NCBI RefSeq assembly: GCF_003171655.1
Contig: NZ_QFZL01000001.1
Coordinates: 558,001-622,000, forward strand
Source: Stakelama portus
GTDB taxonomy: Bacteria > Pseudomonadota > Alphaproteobacteria > Sphingomonadales > Sphingomonadaceae
DNA length: 64,000 nt
Reading direction: 5' to 3'
A program made the translations under genes and the position numbers. Under the pieces are notes generated by a model that searched no databases, was not told the DNA's origin, and was given only the letters and a program-made list of their open reading frames with translations. Every line of letters starts with the position of its first letter. Position 1 is the stretch's first letter. Shown one piece after another: positions 26,958 through 34,393 of the stretch.

Positions 26958-27686
26958 TTATCGGTTCGTGGTCTGGTCGAAGCTGACGGTGATGGTGAAG
27001 CGCAGCGCCGAGCCGGCCAGCGCCGCCGGGGGGGCGGGCATCGGCGCGGCGCGCGTGACGGTGCGCAGCGCCAGCCGGTCGAGCAGCGGGTTGCCGCTGC
27101 TTCGATCAAGCGACACATCATGCACCGCGCCGCCGCGATCGACGGTGAAAGCGATGACTGCCTCGCCCCGGATGCGCACGCCGCGCGGACGACGCGTGTT
27201 GATGTGCGACCAGAGCGCACTGGCATAGCTGTCGCGGACATTTGCCGGTTCGCGGGTGCGGACGGGGGCCGACGGCGCGATCGGTTGCGGCGACGCCTGT
27301 TCGGGAAGCGATGGGGCGGCGAGCTGCGGGGGCGCTGCGGAAGGGCTCGATGCGGCTTGCCGCGCCGGCGATTGTAACGGGGACGGCGCCGCAGGTGTCG
27401 ATGGCGCAGTCGATGTCCGTGGCGGAACCGGTTTGCGTGGCTGTGCGGCCGGCTGTGCGGCTTTCGGTTCCGGTTCCGGAACGGCTGATTCCTCAGGGGG
27501 CAGGTCGAAAAGGCGCAGCGCCTGCTGCTCCGCCTGCGGTGCGGTCACTGCAGGCGCGAGCATCACCAGCGAAGCGAGCAATGCCAGAATAGCGGTCGCA
27601 CTGCCCGCGCCGGCCCAGCGTTCGCGGCCCGAGGGGCGATAGCCCCCCGAGCCGCTCCGGTCAGAAGGATTTGCTGAGCGAGACAT
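26958..27686 (-). CDS. tonB: TonB energy transducer
   Basis: A 242-residue protein starting at ATG 27686, 26 bp inside the end of the receptor gene, so the two are translationally coupled. It has one N-terminal transmembrane helix (AILALLASLVMLAPAV, about residues 32-47), a long Pro/Ala-rich periplasm-spanning region, and a C-terminal TonB domain. In that domain RGEAVIAFTVDRGGAVHDVS is followed by RSSGNPLLDRLALRTVTRAAPMPAPP. It would transmit proton-motive energy to the receptor encoded just upstream. No exbB/exbD are nearby, so it must share those encoded elsewhere. Confidence 0.9.
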   Translation of the reverse strand: MSRSANPSDRSGSGGYRPSGRERWAGAGSATAILALLASLVMLAPAVTAPQAEQQALRLFDLPPEESAVPEPEPKAAQPAAQPRKPVPPRTSTAPSTPAAPSPLQSPARQAASSPSAAPPQLAAPSLPEQASPQPIAPSAPVRTREPANVRDSYASALWSHINTRRPRGVRIRGEAVIAFTVDRGGAVHDVSLDRSSGNPLLDRLALRTVTRAAPMPAPPAALAGSALRFTITVSFDQTTNR

Positions 27687-29811
27687 TGAAGCTGCGCCCA
27701 CGCCCCGGAACGGGACGAAGCACGCCGGTCGCCCTGCGGTCGCCAAGCGATACGCCGCCCAGCGGCAGCGCATATTCCTTGTCGAACAGATTGCTGACAT
27801 CGACGCCGATGCGGAAGCCGCTGATCGTATAGCCCGCGCCGATATTGGCGAGGACATAGCCGTCGGTTTGCGGTTCGTTGCGCGTGGCATCGACGCGCGT
27901 CTTGTCCGCCACGCCTTCGATTTCGACATGACCGTCGAAACCGGTGCCGCTCATATAATGCAGCCCCAGCGACGCGTTGAACGGCATCTGATGGTACAGT
28001 GGCGCGTCATCGGCGAGATTGTCGCCCTGCAGCCAGCTTGCCGCCGCTTCGACCCGCAAATGCCCGCCCGCATCGTTGCGCAGCAGCTCGACCGCGCCCG
28101 ACAGATCGACACCGTAAAAGCGCGCTTCGCCATTGGTGAATTGCAGCTGCACGAAACCGCTGGGCATGCCCATCATGTCGGTCAGGTCCGCGATCTTCAC
28201 CACGTCGATATAATCGTCGACATGCGTGTACCAGGGCGAAATGCGCAGCGACCACGGCGTCTCAACACCGCCGCTGAACGTCACTGCCGCGCTCACCGTA
28301 TCGGCGCTTTCGGACGTCAGGTTCAGATTGCCGACATAGCCGTTGCCGTCACCGAACCAGCCGATCATCTGGCTCGCCATCGCGCCGCGACCCCAGCTGT
28401 AGCGTTCATAGAGGTTGGGCGAACGCACCTTGTGCGCATAGCCGAGCTCGAACGCGACGCCCTGCGCCGCTTCCCAGTCGAGCATCGCCGATCCGCTCCA
28501 GTTGCTGTCGTGGCGATCGCGGTCGGCGGCGTTGAACGCAGCGGCGGCGGCGACATCGGCCATCTGCATCATGCCGGTGCCATAGGGCGCGACATCGCCG
28601 GTGTTCATCCAGACCTGATCGTTGCGGATGCCGATGGTGGTCTTCACCGTGTCGCTCCACTGTGCTTCCCATTCGGCATAGGTGCCCAGCCGGTCGCGGT
28701 TGGCGGCGTTGATGTTGATGAAGGTGTTCGGCCCCATCATCATGCTGCCCGCCACCGGCGGCCACCATTCGTTCAGCCATTGGTGGTGCAGCTCGCTGCC
28801 GAAACGCACCGTGTCGCGGCTCGAGACGGGGATCGAGACCGCCAGCCGGTATCCTGCCGTATGCCCTTCACCGAGCATCGGCATGCCGCCATCGGCGATG
28901 CCGCCCTTGTCCGCCAGAAAGTTCATTTCATGGTCGGTGTCGCGGTAATGCGCAGTGAAATCGACATCGCCCCAGCCGAAATAGCCCTGATAGCGGCCGT
29001 TCAGGAACCAGGACTGGTTGTCGGTCATGTCCATATGCTGGTTGGGAAACCCCTCATAGGGCGCGCGCTGGATGCCGCCGCGCAGGGTGAATAGCCCCGC
29101 GCCGGTGAGCGCGCCGAGCGTCAGGCTGTGGTCGGTCTTGGCATATTCGGTCGATCGGACGACACCGGCATCGCCGCCGCCATCATAATTGTCCGACTGG
29201 GTATAGCTGCCGTCATAGGTGAGGCTGAGGCTGTCGGTGGCGACGGTCACATTCGCTGCGCCGCCGAACGCATCGCCGTTCGAGCGGTAAAAGGCCGAAA
29301 CGCGACCGGTGACCAAAGTCGCTTCGGGGCCGGCGAATTTGGGATCGGCGGTGTTGACGCTGATCGCGCCGCCGATCGTGTCGCCGCCCATGCTGACGGG
29401 CGTCACGCCGGTCAGCACCGAAATGCTCTCCACCGTTTGCGGGTCGGTATAGGAAAGCGGCGGGTTCATGTTGTTGGGGCAGACCTCGTCGATCTTCACC
29501 CCGTCGACCAGGATCGAGACGCGACCATTGTCGAGCCCGCGAATGGTGGGAAGGCTGGAAACGCCGCCCGCGCCATAGGCGCTGACGCCGGGAATGCGGG
29601 TGATGGTTTCGGCGGTGTCGCTGCTGGTCGCGGAATCGCGCGCCAACGTGTCGCGATCGACGGTCTGGGCCGAAGCCGGGTCGGAACCGATTTCGACCGG
29701 GGGCAGGGCAGTGGCGTCCTGCGCCATGGCGGGGAGGGCGGGAAGCGTGGCGCCGCAAATCAGCGCAAGGCGAAGCGCCGCAACCGGGCGGCGCGCGTCG
29801 AACATCGTCAT
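27661..29811 (-). CDS. OprC-like TonB-dependent receptor, probably copper
   Basis: An outer-membrane receptor of 716 residues from ATG 29811. A signal peptide ends at PAMAQ. The plug domain contains IPGVSAYGAGGVSSLPTIRG and a VDGVKIDEVCPNNMNPPLSY segment. A 22-strand barrel ends in Phe (FNVSLSKSF). Methionines are frequent in extracellular stretches (MGMPS, MPMLGEGH, GSMMMG, GTGMMQM), and CPNNMNPP resembles the Cys/Met copper site of Pseudomonas OprC. Neighbours DUF2946 and TonB fit a copper-uptake operon. The copper assignment is inference. An ATG at 29895 would add 28 arginine-rich residues before the signal peptide. Confidence 0.82.
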   Translation of the reverse strand: MTMFDARRPVAALRLALICGATLPALPAMAQDATALPPVEIGSDPASAQTVDRDTLARDSATSSDTAETITRIPGVSAYGAGGVSSLPTIRGLDNGRVSILVDGVKIDEVCPNNMNPPLSYTDPQTVESISVLTGVTPVSMGGDTIGGAISVNTADPKFAGPEATLVTGRVSAFYRSNGDAFGGAANVTVATDSLSLTYDGSYTQSDNYDGGGDAGVVRSTEYAKTDHSLTLGALTGAGLFTLRGGIQRAPYEGFPNQHMDMTDNQSWFLNGRYQGYFGWGDVDFTAHYRDTDHEMNFLADKGGIADGGMPMLGEGHTAGYRLAVSIPVSSRDTVRFGSELHHQWLNEWWPPVAGSMMMGPNTFININAANRDRLGTYAEWEAQWSDTVKTTIGIRNDQVWMNTGDVAPYGTGMMQMADVAAAAAFNAADRDRHDSNWSGSAMLDWEAAQGVAFELGYAHKVRSPNLYERYSWGRGAMASQMIGWFGDGNGYVGNLNLTSESADTVSAAVTFSGGVETPWSLRISPWYTHVDDYIDVVKIADLTDMMGMPSGFVQLQFTNGEARFYGVDLSGAVELLRNDAGGHLRVEAAASWLQGDNLADDAPLYHQMPFNASLGLHYMSGTGFDGHVEIEGVADKTRVDATRNEPQTDGYVLANIGAGYTISGFRIGVDVSNLFDKEYALPLGGVSLGDRRATGVLRPVPGRGRSFNVSLSKSF

Positions 29812-29904
29812 GGAATAGTCTCGTCTGCTGATCCGCCGCGCAGCCGCGCGACGGCTATCCGAAAGCAGCGCACGACGGCTGTCCGTCGCGCGCATGGTTG
29901 CATT

Positions 29905-30324
29905 TTAGAGGATCAGCAGCGGTGGTGCGTGGCTGGGCGGCGGTGGCGCCGACAGGCCCGCGCCGGGGCGGACCATGACGATCCGGGGCGCGGGGGTTTC
30001 GGCGAGATAGCGGACGCGGGGCGCCGGCGGCGCGATCAATGCCGGCAGTTCGGCAGGCGATGCGTGCCCGGCAAAGCTGCAATGATCGCGCGGGTCCTTT
30101 GGCGCCTGCTTCTGATGATCGGGGGTGAGGCGCCGCGCATAATCGCCGGTCAGTGTCTTTTCGACCAGGCCGGTACCGGTACAGATGGTGACGACCACGC
30201 TGTGATCGGCGGCGCGGGCGGGCATATAGCCCGGGGGCACGATGACGGTGAGCGCAATGGCCGCAAAGGCCAGCACTCGCATCACGCGGCCGATCAGGCC
30301 GATTCTGATGGCGTCCATCCCCAT
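29905..30324 (-). CDS. DUF2946-like exported protein
   Basis: A 139-residue protein with an N-terminal hydrophobic segment (MRVLAFAAIALTVIVPPGYMP, residues about 15-35). A short soluble part contains ICTGTGLV and DHCSFAGHAS, and the tail is Pro-rich with a possible hydrophobic end (PPSHAPPLLIL). The Cys ... DHC ... H pattern fits the DUF2946 family, usually found next to copper-related TonB receptors and CopC/PCuAC genes. It is first in a minus-strand run with the receptor and tonB. The start is uncertain: 30324, 30318 and 30366 are all in frame and none has a strong ribosome-binding site. Confidence 0.65.
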   Translation of the reverse strand: MGMDAIRIGLIGRVMRVLAFAAIALTVIVPPGYMPARAADHSVVVTICTGTGLVEKTLTGDYARRLTPDHQKQAPKDPRDHCSFAGHASPAELPALIAPPAPRVRYLAETPAPRIVMVRPGAGLSAPPPPSHAPPLLIL

Positions 30325-30400
30325 TTGTGCCGCGCTGCTAGGCCGCAGGCTGTCGCGGCGCAACACGAAATCGCGCGCGCCACGGCTACCCCCGATCGGT

Positions 30401-31990
30401 TCAGGCCGCCACTTTCCGCCGCTCGGCCATTTCCTCGTTGAGCATTTCGGCGAGCAGGAAGGCGAGTTCGATGCTCTGTCCGGCGTTCAAACGCGGGTCG
30501 CAATGGGTGTGGTAGCGCGCTTCGAGATCGGCTTCGCCGATATCGATCATGCCGCCGGTGCATTCGGTCACGTCCTGCCCGGTCATCTCGCAATGGATGC
30601 CGCCGCCGAACGTCCCTTCGGCGCGGTGGACGGCGAAGAAGCCGCGCACTTCGGCCAGGATACGGTCGAACGGGCGCGTCTTATAGCCATTGGCCGCCTT
30701 GACGACGTTGCCGTGCATCGGATCGCAGCTCCACACCACCGGATGGCCCTCGCGCTTTACGGCGCGGACGAGCGGGGGCAGGCCGTCTTCGATCTTTTCA
30801 TGGCCATAGCGAGTGATCAGCGTCATCCGGCCGGGAATGCGGGCAGGGTTGAGCGTGTCGAGCAGGCGCAGCAATGCGTCGGGCTCCAGCGTCGGGCCGC
30901 ATTTCATGCCGATCGGGTTGCCGATGCCGCGCAGATATTCGACATGCGCCGATCCTTCGAACCGGGTGCGATCGCCGATCCACAGCATATGCGCGCTGGT
31001 GTCGTACCATTGGCCGGTCAGGCTGTCCTGACGCGTGAGCGCCTGTTCATAGGGGAGCAGCAGCGCCTCATGGCTGGTATAGAAATCGGTGCCCGATAGC
31101 TGCGGCACGCTTTCCGGGCCGAGCCCGCACGCACGCATGAAGGCCAATGTCTCGCCGATCCGGTCGGCGGTCTCCACGAATTTTTCGGCCCATGGGCTGC
31201 GGTCCATGAAATCGAGCATCCAGGCATGAACCTGGTCGAGGCTGGCATAGCCGCCATGCGCGAAGGCGCGCAGCAGGTTGAGCGTGGCGGCGGACTGGCT
31301 GTAGCCCTGTACCATGCGCTGCGGATCGGGGATGCGCGCTTCGGGCGTGAACGCCGATCCGTTGACATTGTCGCCGCGATAGCTGGGCAGCTCGACGCCG
31401 TCGATCGTCTCGGTCGGAGCCGATCGGGGCTTGGCGAACTGCCCGGCCATCCGGCCCACCTTCACTGTCGGGAGCTTTGACGCAAAGGTGAGCACAACCG
31501 CCATCTGAAGGATGACGCGGAACGTGTCGCGGATATTGTTGGGGTGAAACTCGGCGAAGCTTTCGGCGCAATCGCCGCCCTGAAGCAGGAACGCCTTGCC
31601 CTCGGAAACGCGCGCGAGTTCTTCGGTCAGCTGCCGCGCTTCGCCGGCGAAGACGAGCGGCGGGAAGCTGGCGATCTGGCCAGTGGCGGCGGCAAGCGCT
31701 TGCGGATCGGGATATTCGGGCAGCTGGCGCGCCTCGTGCGATTTCCAGCTGTCGGGGGACCATTTGTTCATGGCGTCCTCTCCGGGACGATAGGGGACGA
31801 ACCAATCGGCATGATGGGCAATGCCGTTGGCGGCGATTTGATTGACGACGGTGCGGCTGGCGCGTTTGCCATGTTCTTCCCAGCCCTGAACCGTCGAACC
31901 GGGCGAATCATACCAGGCGCCGAAAGCGGCGCGGGTGAGGGCGCGTTCCTCGCGGAACCGGCGGATCTTGAAACCAGCTAAAGTCGTCAT
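30401..31990 (-). CDS. Class II DAHP synthase with N-terminal HTH
   Basis: An open frame of 529 residues. Residues 74-529 (from [20 protein letters not shown]) are a complete plant-like (type II) 3-deoxy-D-arabino-heptulosonate 7-phosphate synthase, the first shikimate-pathway step. It shows [34 protein letters not shown] and [15 protein letters not shown]. Residues 1-73 look like an XRE-type helix-turn-helix ([20 protein letters not shown] ... [12 protein letters not shown]) and are unusual for this enzyme. ATG 31771 has GAGAGGA five bases upstream and would give the normal 456-residue enzyme. Two products, or a fusion, are therefore possible. Upstream DNA (32020-32060) is AT-rich and could hold the promoter. 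Confidence 0.9.
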
Positions 31991-32083
31991 GGGATGCGCG
32001 GCTTACTCCGACGGGGTAATGTGCGCAAACCCTTTTTGAATAAAAATGCAAATTGCCCGCCAAACGGCCCACGCGCCGCTGCG

Positions 32084-34393
32084 TTATTGCCCGCCCGACA
32101 TCGAATAAGGGCGCATATCGGGCCGCGTCGCCCAGCTGGTGTTGGGCGTTGCCTGCATGGTGAAGCGCAGTTCGCCGCCCGCGACGATCTCGCCATGGCG
32201 GATGAAGCTGCGGTTGAGGCGGCGGCCGTTGAGTTCGACCTTGCCGATATAGCGGTTCTGCGGCGTCAGATTGTCGGCGACGATCGTGAAATCCTTGCCG
32301 TTGGGCAAATGCAGCGTCGCGCGGTCAACGAACGGGCGGCCGATCACATATTCGAGGCTGCCCGGCGTCACCGGATAGAAGCCAAGCCCGGTGAAGAACA
32401 GCCAGGCCGACATCTGGCCCAGATCGTCATTGCCCGAAAGGCCGGCGGGCGTGTCGTTATACTGGCTGGCGACGATCTGCGTCAGCCGTTCCTGGGTCTT
32501 CCACGGGGCGCCGGCGAAGTCATAGAGATAGGCGACGTGATGGCTCGGTTCGTTGCCATGGATATATTGGCCGATCAGGCCGGCGATATCCTCGGCATGG
32601 CTGTAATCGATGCCCGAATTGTCATAATCGAACATGGCGTCGAGCTTGGCGATCGCCGCGCGGTCGCCGCCCATCGCCGCAAACAGCCCGGCCTGATCCT
32701 GGGGCACGAACCAGCTATATTGCCAGGCGTTGCCCTCGGTATAATCCGAGCCATAGTTGATCGCGGTCGGATCGAACGGCTCGCGATAGCTGCCGTCGGC
32801 AAGCCGCGCGCGCAGGAAGCCGGTGCCGGTGTCGAAGCTGTTGCGCCAGTTTCCGGCGCGGGCATGGAATTGCCGGGCGATATTATCCTTGCCCATCGCC
32901 TGTGCCATGCGCGCGATCGTCCAGTCGTCATAGGCATATTCGACGGTTTTCGAAGCGGCCTCGGGCTCCTTGTCGATCGGAACATAGCCAAGCCGCATAT
33001 ATTCGCGCAGGCCGCCATAGGGGGCATAGGTGGCGCTCGCGACCATCGCGGCGAGTGCTTCTTCCCCGTCAAATCCGCGAATGCCCTTCAGCCAGGCATC
33101 GGCAATGACCGGCACGGCGTGATAGCCGATCATCGTCCAGGTTTCGCGCCCCTGAAATTGCCAGACCGGCAGGATGCCATAGGGGCTGTCATGCCAGCTG
33201 GCGATCAGCGAGCGGACGATCGCGCTGTTGGTTTCCTCTGGCTGGACGAGCGTGAGCAAAGGATGTTCGGCGCGGAACGTATCCCATAGCGAGAAGGTCG
33301 ATCGGAACGCGAACCCGTCGGCGCGGTGAACTTCATTGTCGGTGCCGCGATAGCGCCCGTCGACATCGCCGGCGATCGCGGGCGCGATCAGGCTGTGATA
33401 GAGCGCAGTGGCCATCATCCGCCGCATCGGCTCCGGCGCATCGATCTCGACGGCGCCCAGCGCAGTTTCCCAACGCTCGCGCGTCGCGGCGGCGACCTGA
33501 TCGAAACTGCCGGCTTCGGAGTCGAGATTGGCGATGGCGCCGGCTTCATCGACCGAAGAGATCGCGACCTGCACCTCCAGCGGTGCATCCAGTTCGCCGA
33601 AGTCGAAGCGGGCGACGAGTGCGCGACCCAGCTTTTCGGCCACTGCATCCTCGCCGCGTCCCGGCCCCTGAAAGCCGCGATAGGGGATGTTTTCCTCGGT
33701 ATTCACGAAGGCATGCGTCTTGAGCGGCGTGGAAAAGCGGATCGCGAAATAAAGCTGGCGGTCGGGCGCCCAGCCGCGCGTCTGGCGCGATCCGGTGATC
33801 GTACCGTCGGGGCGGATGCGGATCGAGGACCAGAGCGTCTTGCCGGGGTAATTATAGAGCGAGCTGCGCAAGTCGAGGATCAGATGCGCGTCGCTGCCCG
33901 CTGCAAAGCTGTAGCGATGGACGCCGGTGCGCAGCCCCGCCGTCATTTCCGCGCGCACGCCGATATCGGAGAGGGTGACGGCATAATAGCCCGGCCGCGC
34001 GATTTCGGTGTCGTGGCTGAAGCGCGAGCGATAGCCCGATCCCGGCACGTCGGGGTCGCCGGGTTCCAGCTTCACGTCGCTGCCGACCGCGGGCATCATC
34101 AGGAAATCGCCCAGATCCGAATGGCCCGCGCCCGAAAAATGGGTGTGCGAAAAGCCCTGAATCGTCGGATCGTCGTAGCGATAGCCCGCGGCATGGCCAT
34201 AGCATTCGCGGATTTCGCACGTCGTATCGGTGTCGGGCGACAGCTGGACCATGCCGAACGGCGCGACCGCGCCGGGGAAGGTATGGCCTTCGCCCCCGGT
34301 GCCGATCATCGGATCGACATCGTCATAGCTCTGAAAGGCGAGCAGGGCGGGGGCAGCAAGGAGCAGCGCGAGGCGCGAGATCAGCTTTGACAT
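32084..34393 (-). CDS. GH92 alpha-mannosidase, secreted
   Basis: A 769-residue glycoside hydrolase of family 92, calcium-dependent exo-alpha-mannosidases. A signal peptide covers roughly residues 1-20 (LISRLALLLAAPALLAFQS). Family motifs include DPMIGTGGEGHTFPGA, GFSHTHFSGAG, FSLWDTFRAEHPLL near residue 355, YIHGNEPSHHVAYLYD near residue 645, and GNDDLGQMSAWLFFTGLGFYP near residue 690. The last holds the catalytic base region. Linkage preference cannot be read. It stands alone, without SusCD-type or other glycan genes next to it, 93 bp upstream of the DAHP synthase gene on the same strand. Confidence 0.94.
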   Translation of the reverse strand: MSKLISRLALLLAAPALLAFQSYDDVDPMIGTGGEGHTFPGAVAPFGMVQLSPDTDTTCEIRECYGHAAGYRYDDPTIQGFSHTHFSGAGHSDLGDFLMMPAVGSDVKLEPGDPDVPGSGYRSRFSHDTEIARPGYYAVTLSDIGVRAEMTAGLRTGVHRYSFAAGSDAHLILDLRSSLYNYPGKTLWSSIRIRPDGTITGSRQTRGWAPDRQLYFAIRFSTPLKTHAFVNTEENIPYRGFQGPGRGEDAVAEKLGRALVARFDFGELDAPLEVQVAISSVDEAGAIANLDSEAGSFDQVAAATRERWETALGAVEIDAPEPMRRMMATALYHSLIAPAIAGDVDGRYRGTDNEVHRADGFAFRSTFSLWDTFRAEHPLLTLVQPEETNSAIVRSLIASWHDSPYGILPVWQFQGRETWTMIGYHAVPVIADAWLKGIRGFDGEEALAAMVASATYAPYGGLREYMRLGYVPIDKEPEAASKTVEYAYDDWTIARMAQAMGKDNIARQFHARAGNWRNSFDTGTGFLRARLADGSYREPFDPTAINYGSDYTEGNAWQYSWFVPQDQAGLFAAMGGDRAAIAKLDAMFDYDNSGIDYSHAEDIAGLIGQYIHGNEPSHHVAYLYDFAGAPWKTQERLTQIVASQYNDTPAGLSGNDDLGQMSAWLFFTGLGFYPVTPGSLEYVIGRPFVDRATLHLPNGKDFTIVADNLTPQNRYIGKVELNGRRLNRSFIRHGEIVAGGELRFTMQATPNTSWATRPDMRPYSMSGGQ

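Follow-up and report, generated by a model that had tools for sequence, protein, structure and literature searches.

In the window, the whole stretch of 64,000 nucleotides of Stakelama portus DNA that was analysed, one open reading frame (30401-31990, minus strand) encodes 529 amino acids from an ATG start with no internal stop. The frame remains open for 4 codons further upstream of this ATG, giving 533 codons in total. The N-terminal segment is a predicted XRE-type helix-turn-helix (HTH) domain and the remainder is a class II DAHP synthase. Residues 77–519 score 691.5 bits against the TIGR01358 equivalog model for class II DAHP synthases, above the membership cut-off of 614.7, and PF01474 is matched over its full length (1–438 of 438). 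Residues 70–519 and P. aeruginosa PA2843 (PDB 5uxm) align over their entire length, at 650 bits; by this alignment the DAHP synthase part appears intact and is a candidate enzyme. The fusion, aroG, is the sole DAHP synthase family member found in the genome of the window. The reading frame and the two profile matches confirm the original prediction that an HTH and a complete type II DAHP synthase share one stop-free frame. The internal ATG that it placed at 31771, with a ribosome-binding site of its own, is also present (ATG 31771-31769, GGAGAGG 31783-31777). The features of the locus are:

30401..31990, minus strand: HTH-DAHP synthase fusion gene (aroG with an N-terminal HTH), 529 aa (open reading frame, profile matches and genus comparison)
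31799..31990, minus strand: predicted XRE-type HTH domain, residues 1-64, with the recognition helix at about residues 31-39 (GSTVQGWEE) (profile, conservation and model)
31763..31798, minus strand: variable linker (residues 65-76) that joins HTH and enzyme, with a pN/pS of 0.79 and the internal start inside it (pN/pS)
31777..31783, minus strand: internal Shine-Dalgarno sequence GGAGAGG (sequence and comparison)
31769..31771, minus strand: internal ATG, likely a second start giving DAHP synthase without the HTH (comparison)
30404..31771, minus strand: class II DAHP synthase, complete (TIGR01358, PF01474 and 5uxm alignment)
32003..32019, minus strand: putative operator O1, TTACCC-CGTCG-GAGTAA, 12 nt 5' of the HTH ATG (motif comparison)
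32023..32028, minus strand: putative -35 element TTGCGC (inferred promoter assignment)
about 32000-32005, minus strand: putative -10 element, overlapped by O1, which fills the spacer (inferred promoter assignment)
32027..32043, minus strand: degenerate O2-like site TTATTC-AAAAA-GGGTTT with 4/12 mismatches (motif comparison)

A gene for a family 92 glycoside hydrolase (GH92) lies upstream on the same strand (32084-34393) and ends 93 nt before the HTH start codon. Directly downstream of aroG, also on the same strand, are a DUF2946-like protein (29905-30366; a weak match, below cut-off) and then a TonB receptor (27661-29895), perhaps a copper-related pair.

The leader is only faintly recognizable by sequence. 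The HTH_31 profile (PF13560) is matched with an E-value of 0.001 and 19.8 bits for the leader alone and 16.7 bits within the whole protein, below the Pfam cut-off of 27. A search of solved structures with the HTH profile returned nothing at E ≤ 0.1. The AlphaFold2 model of the leader, built from a 27-sequence alignment, has a pLDDT of 93 and shows a five-helix XRE-type fold (helices 4–15, 20–25, 31–39, 46–54 and 60–64) in which helix 3 is the recognition helix; a model of the full-length fusion came out poorly (pLDDT 48). The P22 c2 repressor (2r1j) superposes on the leader model with Z 7.9, a middling value, and rmsd 2.8 over 63 aligned residues. Other XRE domains are also among the nearest folds, with Z values up to 8.2 and Foldseek E-values above 0.001, and the fold matches include C.AhdI, C.Esp1396I, HppE and MPnS. 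From the model we assign the leader to the XRE-type (lambda repressor-like) HTH fold.

To see how widespread the arrangement is, we compared 151 genomes drawn from the genus, of which 146 have a DAHP synthase match. In 61 of the 151 the HTH and the enzyme are fused in frame with no stop between them; 58 of these are full-length and three (G480, G537 and G405) are partial, with matches that begin within the leader. The enzyme stands alone in 84, and G433 has only C-terminal pieces of DAHP synthase. An HTH separated from the enzyme by a stop codon, the arrangement that the original prediction had set against a fusion, was seen in none of the N-termini compared. The leader carriers with names (55 loci) are mostly Sphingomonas and Stakelama records, S. 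echinoides ATCC 14820 and S. glacialis among them. In total, 219 loci reduce to 154 places when identical start regions are counted once: 86 aroG fusions, 62 nadE fusions and six untyped places (two nadE by their HTH, three stand-alone HTHs and one cut copy of the window). The window itself is outside the 86; it is represented by a near-identical relative, a Sphingomonas sp. metagenome bin (L153) whose leader is 100% identical. A search of 385 genomes of the class gave, outside the family, only three proteins, which lie in frames of 246–482 aa and have a generic XRE part.

Sequence comparison indicates that the HTH is under purifying selection. Averaged over 60 fused genes, pN/pS comes to 0.25 in the HTH and 0.21 in the enzyme, against 0.79 in the linker. 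These values are rough because synonymous sites are near saturation. The HTH also contains invariant residues. The linker is 10–14 residues long. It has no in-frame stop in any of the 60 genes, versus 17 and 38 of the 60 with stops in the other two frames, a difference that is no independent proof because the genes were picked as full-length fusions. A tree built from 60 fused enzymes and 14 of the 84 unfused ones requires three changes of state, at least two of them forced, and gain and loss are indistinguishable on it. Searching 80 of the 84 enzyme-only genomes whole with the HTH profile gave no match in 79 and one in G526, a stand-alone HTH away from aroG; the other four (G395, G399, G422 and G538) are among 14 genomes that were scanned around aroG. 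We also asked whether unfused genomes retain remnants of the HTH. Of the 84 enzyme-only matches, about two dozen begin upstream of query residue 70 (the lowest at 37, in G422), and four of these early-starting matches run over stops (G401, G474, G497 and G409). The surroundings of aroG in the 14 genomes scanned, G422 and the four with stops included, gave nothing above the inclusion threshold with the HTH profile, and we took the early starts as chance extensions.

All 86 aroG fusions have the palindrome TTACCC-N5-GGGTAA within 40 nt before the HTH ATG (67 exact, 15 with one and 4 with two of 12 mismatches). A symmetry scan places this site, O1, 8–12 nt before the ATG in 85 of 85 genes; in L083, where it has two mismatches, it lies at 9 nt. 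The O1 of the window has one asymmetric base pair. In the 400 nt upstream of 14 unfused aroG genes, the best site has 3–6 mismatches and none is within two. When the 85 genes are aligned, the palindrome positions carry 1.1–1.8 bits, and in their surroundings 0.7 is reached only at the TTG of the likely -35 element, at the start codon and in a few further columns. This TTG starts 8–10 nt before the palindrome in 82 of 85 genes, suggesting that the palindrome fills the promoter spacer and overlaps the -10 element. A second copy, O2, with at most two of 12 mismatches, is found in 60 of the 85 genes and in none of 85 shuffled controls, mostly 32–36 bp upstream; it is clear in most relatives and degenerate in the window. 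We propose that O1 is, as a sequence element, a putative operator at the gene's own promoter. The original prediction had pointed to the AT-rich region at 32020-32060 as the target of the HTH. The likely operator (32003-32019) lies just outside the interval that it named.

The same HTH family is found on a second enzyme. The leader is matched at E 0.001 in 66 of 397 genomes of the family, eight of them within the genus. Outside the genus the matches are mostly in frames of 762–863 aa, with four exceptions (77 aa in G036, 91 aa at the second place in G305, 564 aa in G176 and 1050 aa in G396). The places that we read are glutamine-dependent NAD synthetases (PF00795 and PF02540), except G036, a stand-alone HTH. 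In a survey of NadE, the HTH is fused in 24 of the 78 genomes with a match; the nadE of the window's own genome is unfused. About 13 NadE-type leaders are 38–48% identical to that of the window. Their upstream sites differ from the aroG site. Genes whose recognition region is SRTVYGWE or a near variant have GTATCC-N5-GGATAC directly before the start codon, exact in 48 of 54 and with one mismatch in the remaining six. With KTQTVFGWE, 10 of 10 sites are nearer to a TTATCT-N5-GGATAA type. Among 20 of the 54 unfused nadE genes, searched over up to 400 nt, none has a site within two mismatches of either nadE motif or of the aroG motif. Three nadE genes lack both the HTH and the palindrome in genera whose other members are fused (L250 in G103, L251 in G066 and L252 in G126), and these form natural pairs for the study of gain and loss.

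Small relatives of the HTH also occur alone. Two of them, L047 (5480-5698) and L213, encode 73–78 aa and are accompanied by 6-5-6 palindromes (TTATTC-ATTAA-GGATAA and TGTCCC-TGTGA-GGGATA); L274 has an imperfect one (TATCCC-AGATT-GGGAAT) and L214 no convincing palindrome. As judged from translations, all four stand close before Toprim-type-primase-like genes, with phage-like XRE genes nearby. A search of PHROGs with three HTH sequences gave nothing at E 0.01, a phage search with the stand-alone HTH of L047 gave no match, and a plasmid search gave none for the HTH of the window (E 0.01) or for that of L047 (E 0.001). It is possible that such stand-alone relatives are the source of the fused domain.

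The location of O1 between the putative -35 and -10 elements argues for repression. We consider it highly likely from these comparisons that aroG encodes a self-repressing "trigger" enzyme, whose fused HTH would bind the palindrome at its own promoter and repress its own transcription. Two of the elements of such an enzyme are found here: the enzyme and the predicted DNA-binding domain are on one polypeptide, as a conserved reading frame, and a putative operator is present at its own promoter, as a sequence element. With two sites in the promoter region, activation at low occupancy would also be conceivable. The C proteins of restriction systems act as activators from one site and as repressors from the other, and by analogy the fusion might activate its own gene, or activate from O2 and repress from O1. 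Such a scheme would fit the O2 site upstream of O1 in most genes, the presence of C.AhdI and C.Esp1396I among the fold matches and the lack of a Shine-Dalgarno sequence at the HTH start. We nevertheless think it unlikely, since O1 overlaps the putative spacer and -10 element, and 52 nadE fusions of the GTATCC type have no second conserved site in their 60-nt upstream consensus.

Whether the fused HTH itself reads the palindrome can be judged from how the two are distributed. Of 16 fused genomes searched whole, 15 contain the exact motif, always at aroG (twice in G494, as O1 and O2); the exception is G443, whose own copy deviates. None of a first set of eight unfused genomes has it. In a set of 80 unfused genomes, which includes seven of those eight, the exact motif occurs in four, each time on a contig other than that of aroG, and the reversed control pattern in seven. 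Two of these genomes have the motif twice, far from aroG: at 2027 and 2656 in L270 (G522; 629 bp apart) and at 2044 and 2740 in L271 (G497; 696 bp apart). The copies in L270 flank a frame of 229 codons, part of which looks XRE-like but scores very little with the HTH profile. At aroG the motif thus goes with the HTH, yet within the genus it also occurs in genomes that lack the fusion, where its copies are either in other use or there by chance. A wider regulon in the window's own genome was considered and rejected: allowing at most one mismatch in 11 bases gave four places, aroG included, and the reversed control gave more (19 and 17 rows versus 2 and 3).

The fused HTH could instead be structural or catalytic and bind no DNA, with another protein bound to the palindrome. 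HppE and MPnS, enzymes that are among the fold matches, have an N-terminal HTH-like domain that serves in structure or catalysis and is not known to bind DNA, and one of the exact palindromes in unfused genomes is beside another XRE-type gene. We consider this explanation improbable. In the aroG and nadE genes compared, the palindrome accompanies the HTH and is missing where the HTH is missing, and half-site and recognition helix vary together across at least three classes of sequence. This covariation is the strongest evidence that the fused HTH reads the palindrome.

The conservation of the junction between the two domains bears on which products are made. Within nine codons before the WxPxSW motif, 70 of the 86 distinct aroG fusions have an ATG, 69 of them with a Shine-Dalgarno-like motif. 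In 66 of the 70, GGAG is placed exactly 6 nt before this ATG; the window, like L153, is an exception in spacing, with the GGAG of its GGAGAGG 8 nt before the ATG. Each base of the GGAG is 96–99% conserved, wobble position included, in an otherwise drifting linker, which suggests that two products are likely made and looks like a selected second start. The junction ATG is absent from the other 16 fusions, having been lost at no fewer than four separate places in the tree. In 14 of these 16, the stretch that begins 16 codons ahead of the junction motif and ends 25 codons beyond it has no ATG, GTG or TTG with a Shine-Dalgarno sequence; the remaining two have a GTG (L188) or TTG (L074) preceded by one. 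L004 and L005 have an ATG without a Shine-Dalgarno sequence just inside the enzyme. Where no junction ATG exists, the fused protein should be the enzyme. We checked 12 genomes for other DAHP synthases and found one class II match in each and no class I match in 10. The other two, G489 (L248) and G432 (L249), have a single class I family match (PF00793) in a 276-aa frame, which by its length we presume could be KDO8P synthase. Six genomes (G245, G280, G449, G511, G467 and G533) lack a junction ATG and have a single class II match without any of class I. No DAHP synthase candidate other than the fused gene was found in these six, and the long form is therefore very probably real. A short, HTH-free form is likely made in most species, this one included. 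The two products would have estimated masses of about 57 kDa (long) and 49 kDa (short).

The 62 nadE fusions are more varied at the junction: 45 have an ATG (22 with a Shine-Dalgarno sequence), 15 lack any start codon in the 12 codons that precede the junction motif, in one more the sole start codon is a TTG, and one could not be placed. At the 5' end of the aroG fusions, the HTH ATG has no Shine-Dalgarno sequence in 63 of 86 and an AAGG in 23. As the promoter is so close to this ATG, the mRNA is likely leaderless and would start at the HTH AUG. It is very improbable that only the short product from 31771 matters, with the upstream frame being either a separate leader or an accident without function: the strongly conserved internal start and the weak signals at the HTH ATG would suit this, but the HTH is constrained and has invariant residues, 16 fusions lack the junction ATG, including six whose genomes yielded no other DAHP synthase, and the parts are joined without a stop in 61 genomes. 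The original prediction had offered two alternatives, a fusion with possible autoregulation or two products from alternative starts. The comparison supports both, the former through the 61 fused genomes, the selection on the HTH, the fusions without a junction ATG and the palindrome, and the latter through the conserved ATG and GGAG.

A self-repressing aroG fusion could work as follows. Paired HTHs of the fused enzyme would bind O1, and O2 where present, and block the promoter, so that self-repression would hold the enzyme supply at a set level. A bare HTH of 65 residues needs to dimerise on a palindrome, and the oligomeric enzyme may supply this, as class II DAHP synthases are oligomers. Characterised type II enzymes are mostly tetramers, and PA1901 is described as mainly dimeric in solution (PMC6435475); either could bring two HTHs together. 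The internal Shine-Dalgarno sequence and ATG would give HTH-free enzyme from the same mRNA. The free enzyme would dilute the HTHs per oligomer and make the ratio of regulator to enzyme tunable, and in lineages without the internal start all enzyme should carry the HTH. An attractive possibility, given that PA2843 is inhibited by Trp (PMC6435475), is that Trp feeds back on DNA binding through the enzyme's allosteric site. The simplest reading of the same HTH on two unrelated enzymes is control of enzyme amount.

These observations also raise a broader proposal, for which we see the chances as evenly divided. A promoter, a 17-bp operator and an HTH segment may form a portable self-control cassette that has been joined in frame to unrelated essential enzyme genes, aroG in Sphingomonas and nadE in sister genera. 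Half-site and helix would have co-diverged to give private operators, and an upstream start without a Shine-Dalgarno sequence, together with a Shine-Dalgarno-driven internal start, would give repressor-enzyme and free enzyme from one mRNA. The three natural specificity classes (TTACCC, GTATCC and TTATCT) differ in few residues and offer natural material for testing how such HTHs recognise DNA. Some lineages have the internal start and others lack it, which makes the value of two products from one frame testable.

C proteins and the P22 c2 and 434 repressors have palindromic operators in their own promoters. They share the small XRE fold of the aroG leader but are stand-alone DNA-binding proteins (repressor domains for 434 and P22). 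The leader is not a C protein: it is fused to DAHP synthase, and the adjoining genes are GH92 and the weak DUF2946 match. In the textbook picture, the gateway enzyme of aromatic synthesis is under feedback control through separate regulators; with the aroG fusion, regulation of the gene seems to lie with the enzyme itself. TrpR and TyrR, which control DAHP synthase genes transcriptionally, are separate proteins, unlike the enzyme-borne HTH, and are described as being conserved across many gammaproteobacteria but missing from other classes (PMC5343134). The fusions suggest a mode of control for aroG and nadE in sphingomonads, where on that description TrpR and TyrR are not expected. PA2843, whose enzyme part aligns with that of the fusion, is a chain of 453 residues with no HTH; its described regulation is allosteric, by Trp only (PMC6435475). 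For NAD synthesis, NadQ is described as a separate alphaproteobacterial regulator of NAD genes, nadE included in Rhodobacterales and Caulobacterales, with the motif ttATRCTCannntGAGYATaa (PMC5343134), versus GTATCC-N5-GGATAC for HTH-NadE. NadQ, NrtR and NadR control NAD synthesis genes as separate proteins, whereas HTH-NadE carries its own domain.

In the literature searched, which excluded most subscription papers, we found no description of a DAHP synthase or NAD synthetase fused to an HTH. Enzymes that double as repressors are an established kind. PutA and NadR are enzymes that also act as repressors, and BirA, the group II biotin ligase, is described as a metabolic enzyme with a DNA-binding domain. 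The aroG fusion is like all three in having both functions on one chain. They differ from it in their enzymes and in their DNA-binding families, and the aroG fusion is set apart by the site found at its own gene, by a conserved second internal start and by the presence of the same HTH on two unrelated enzymes.
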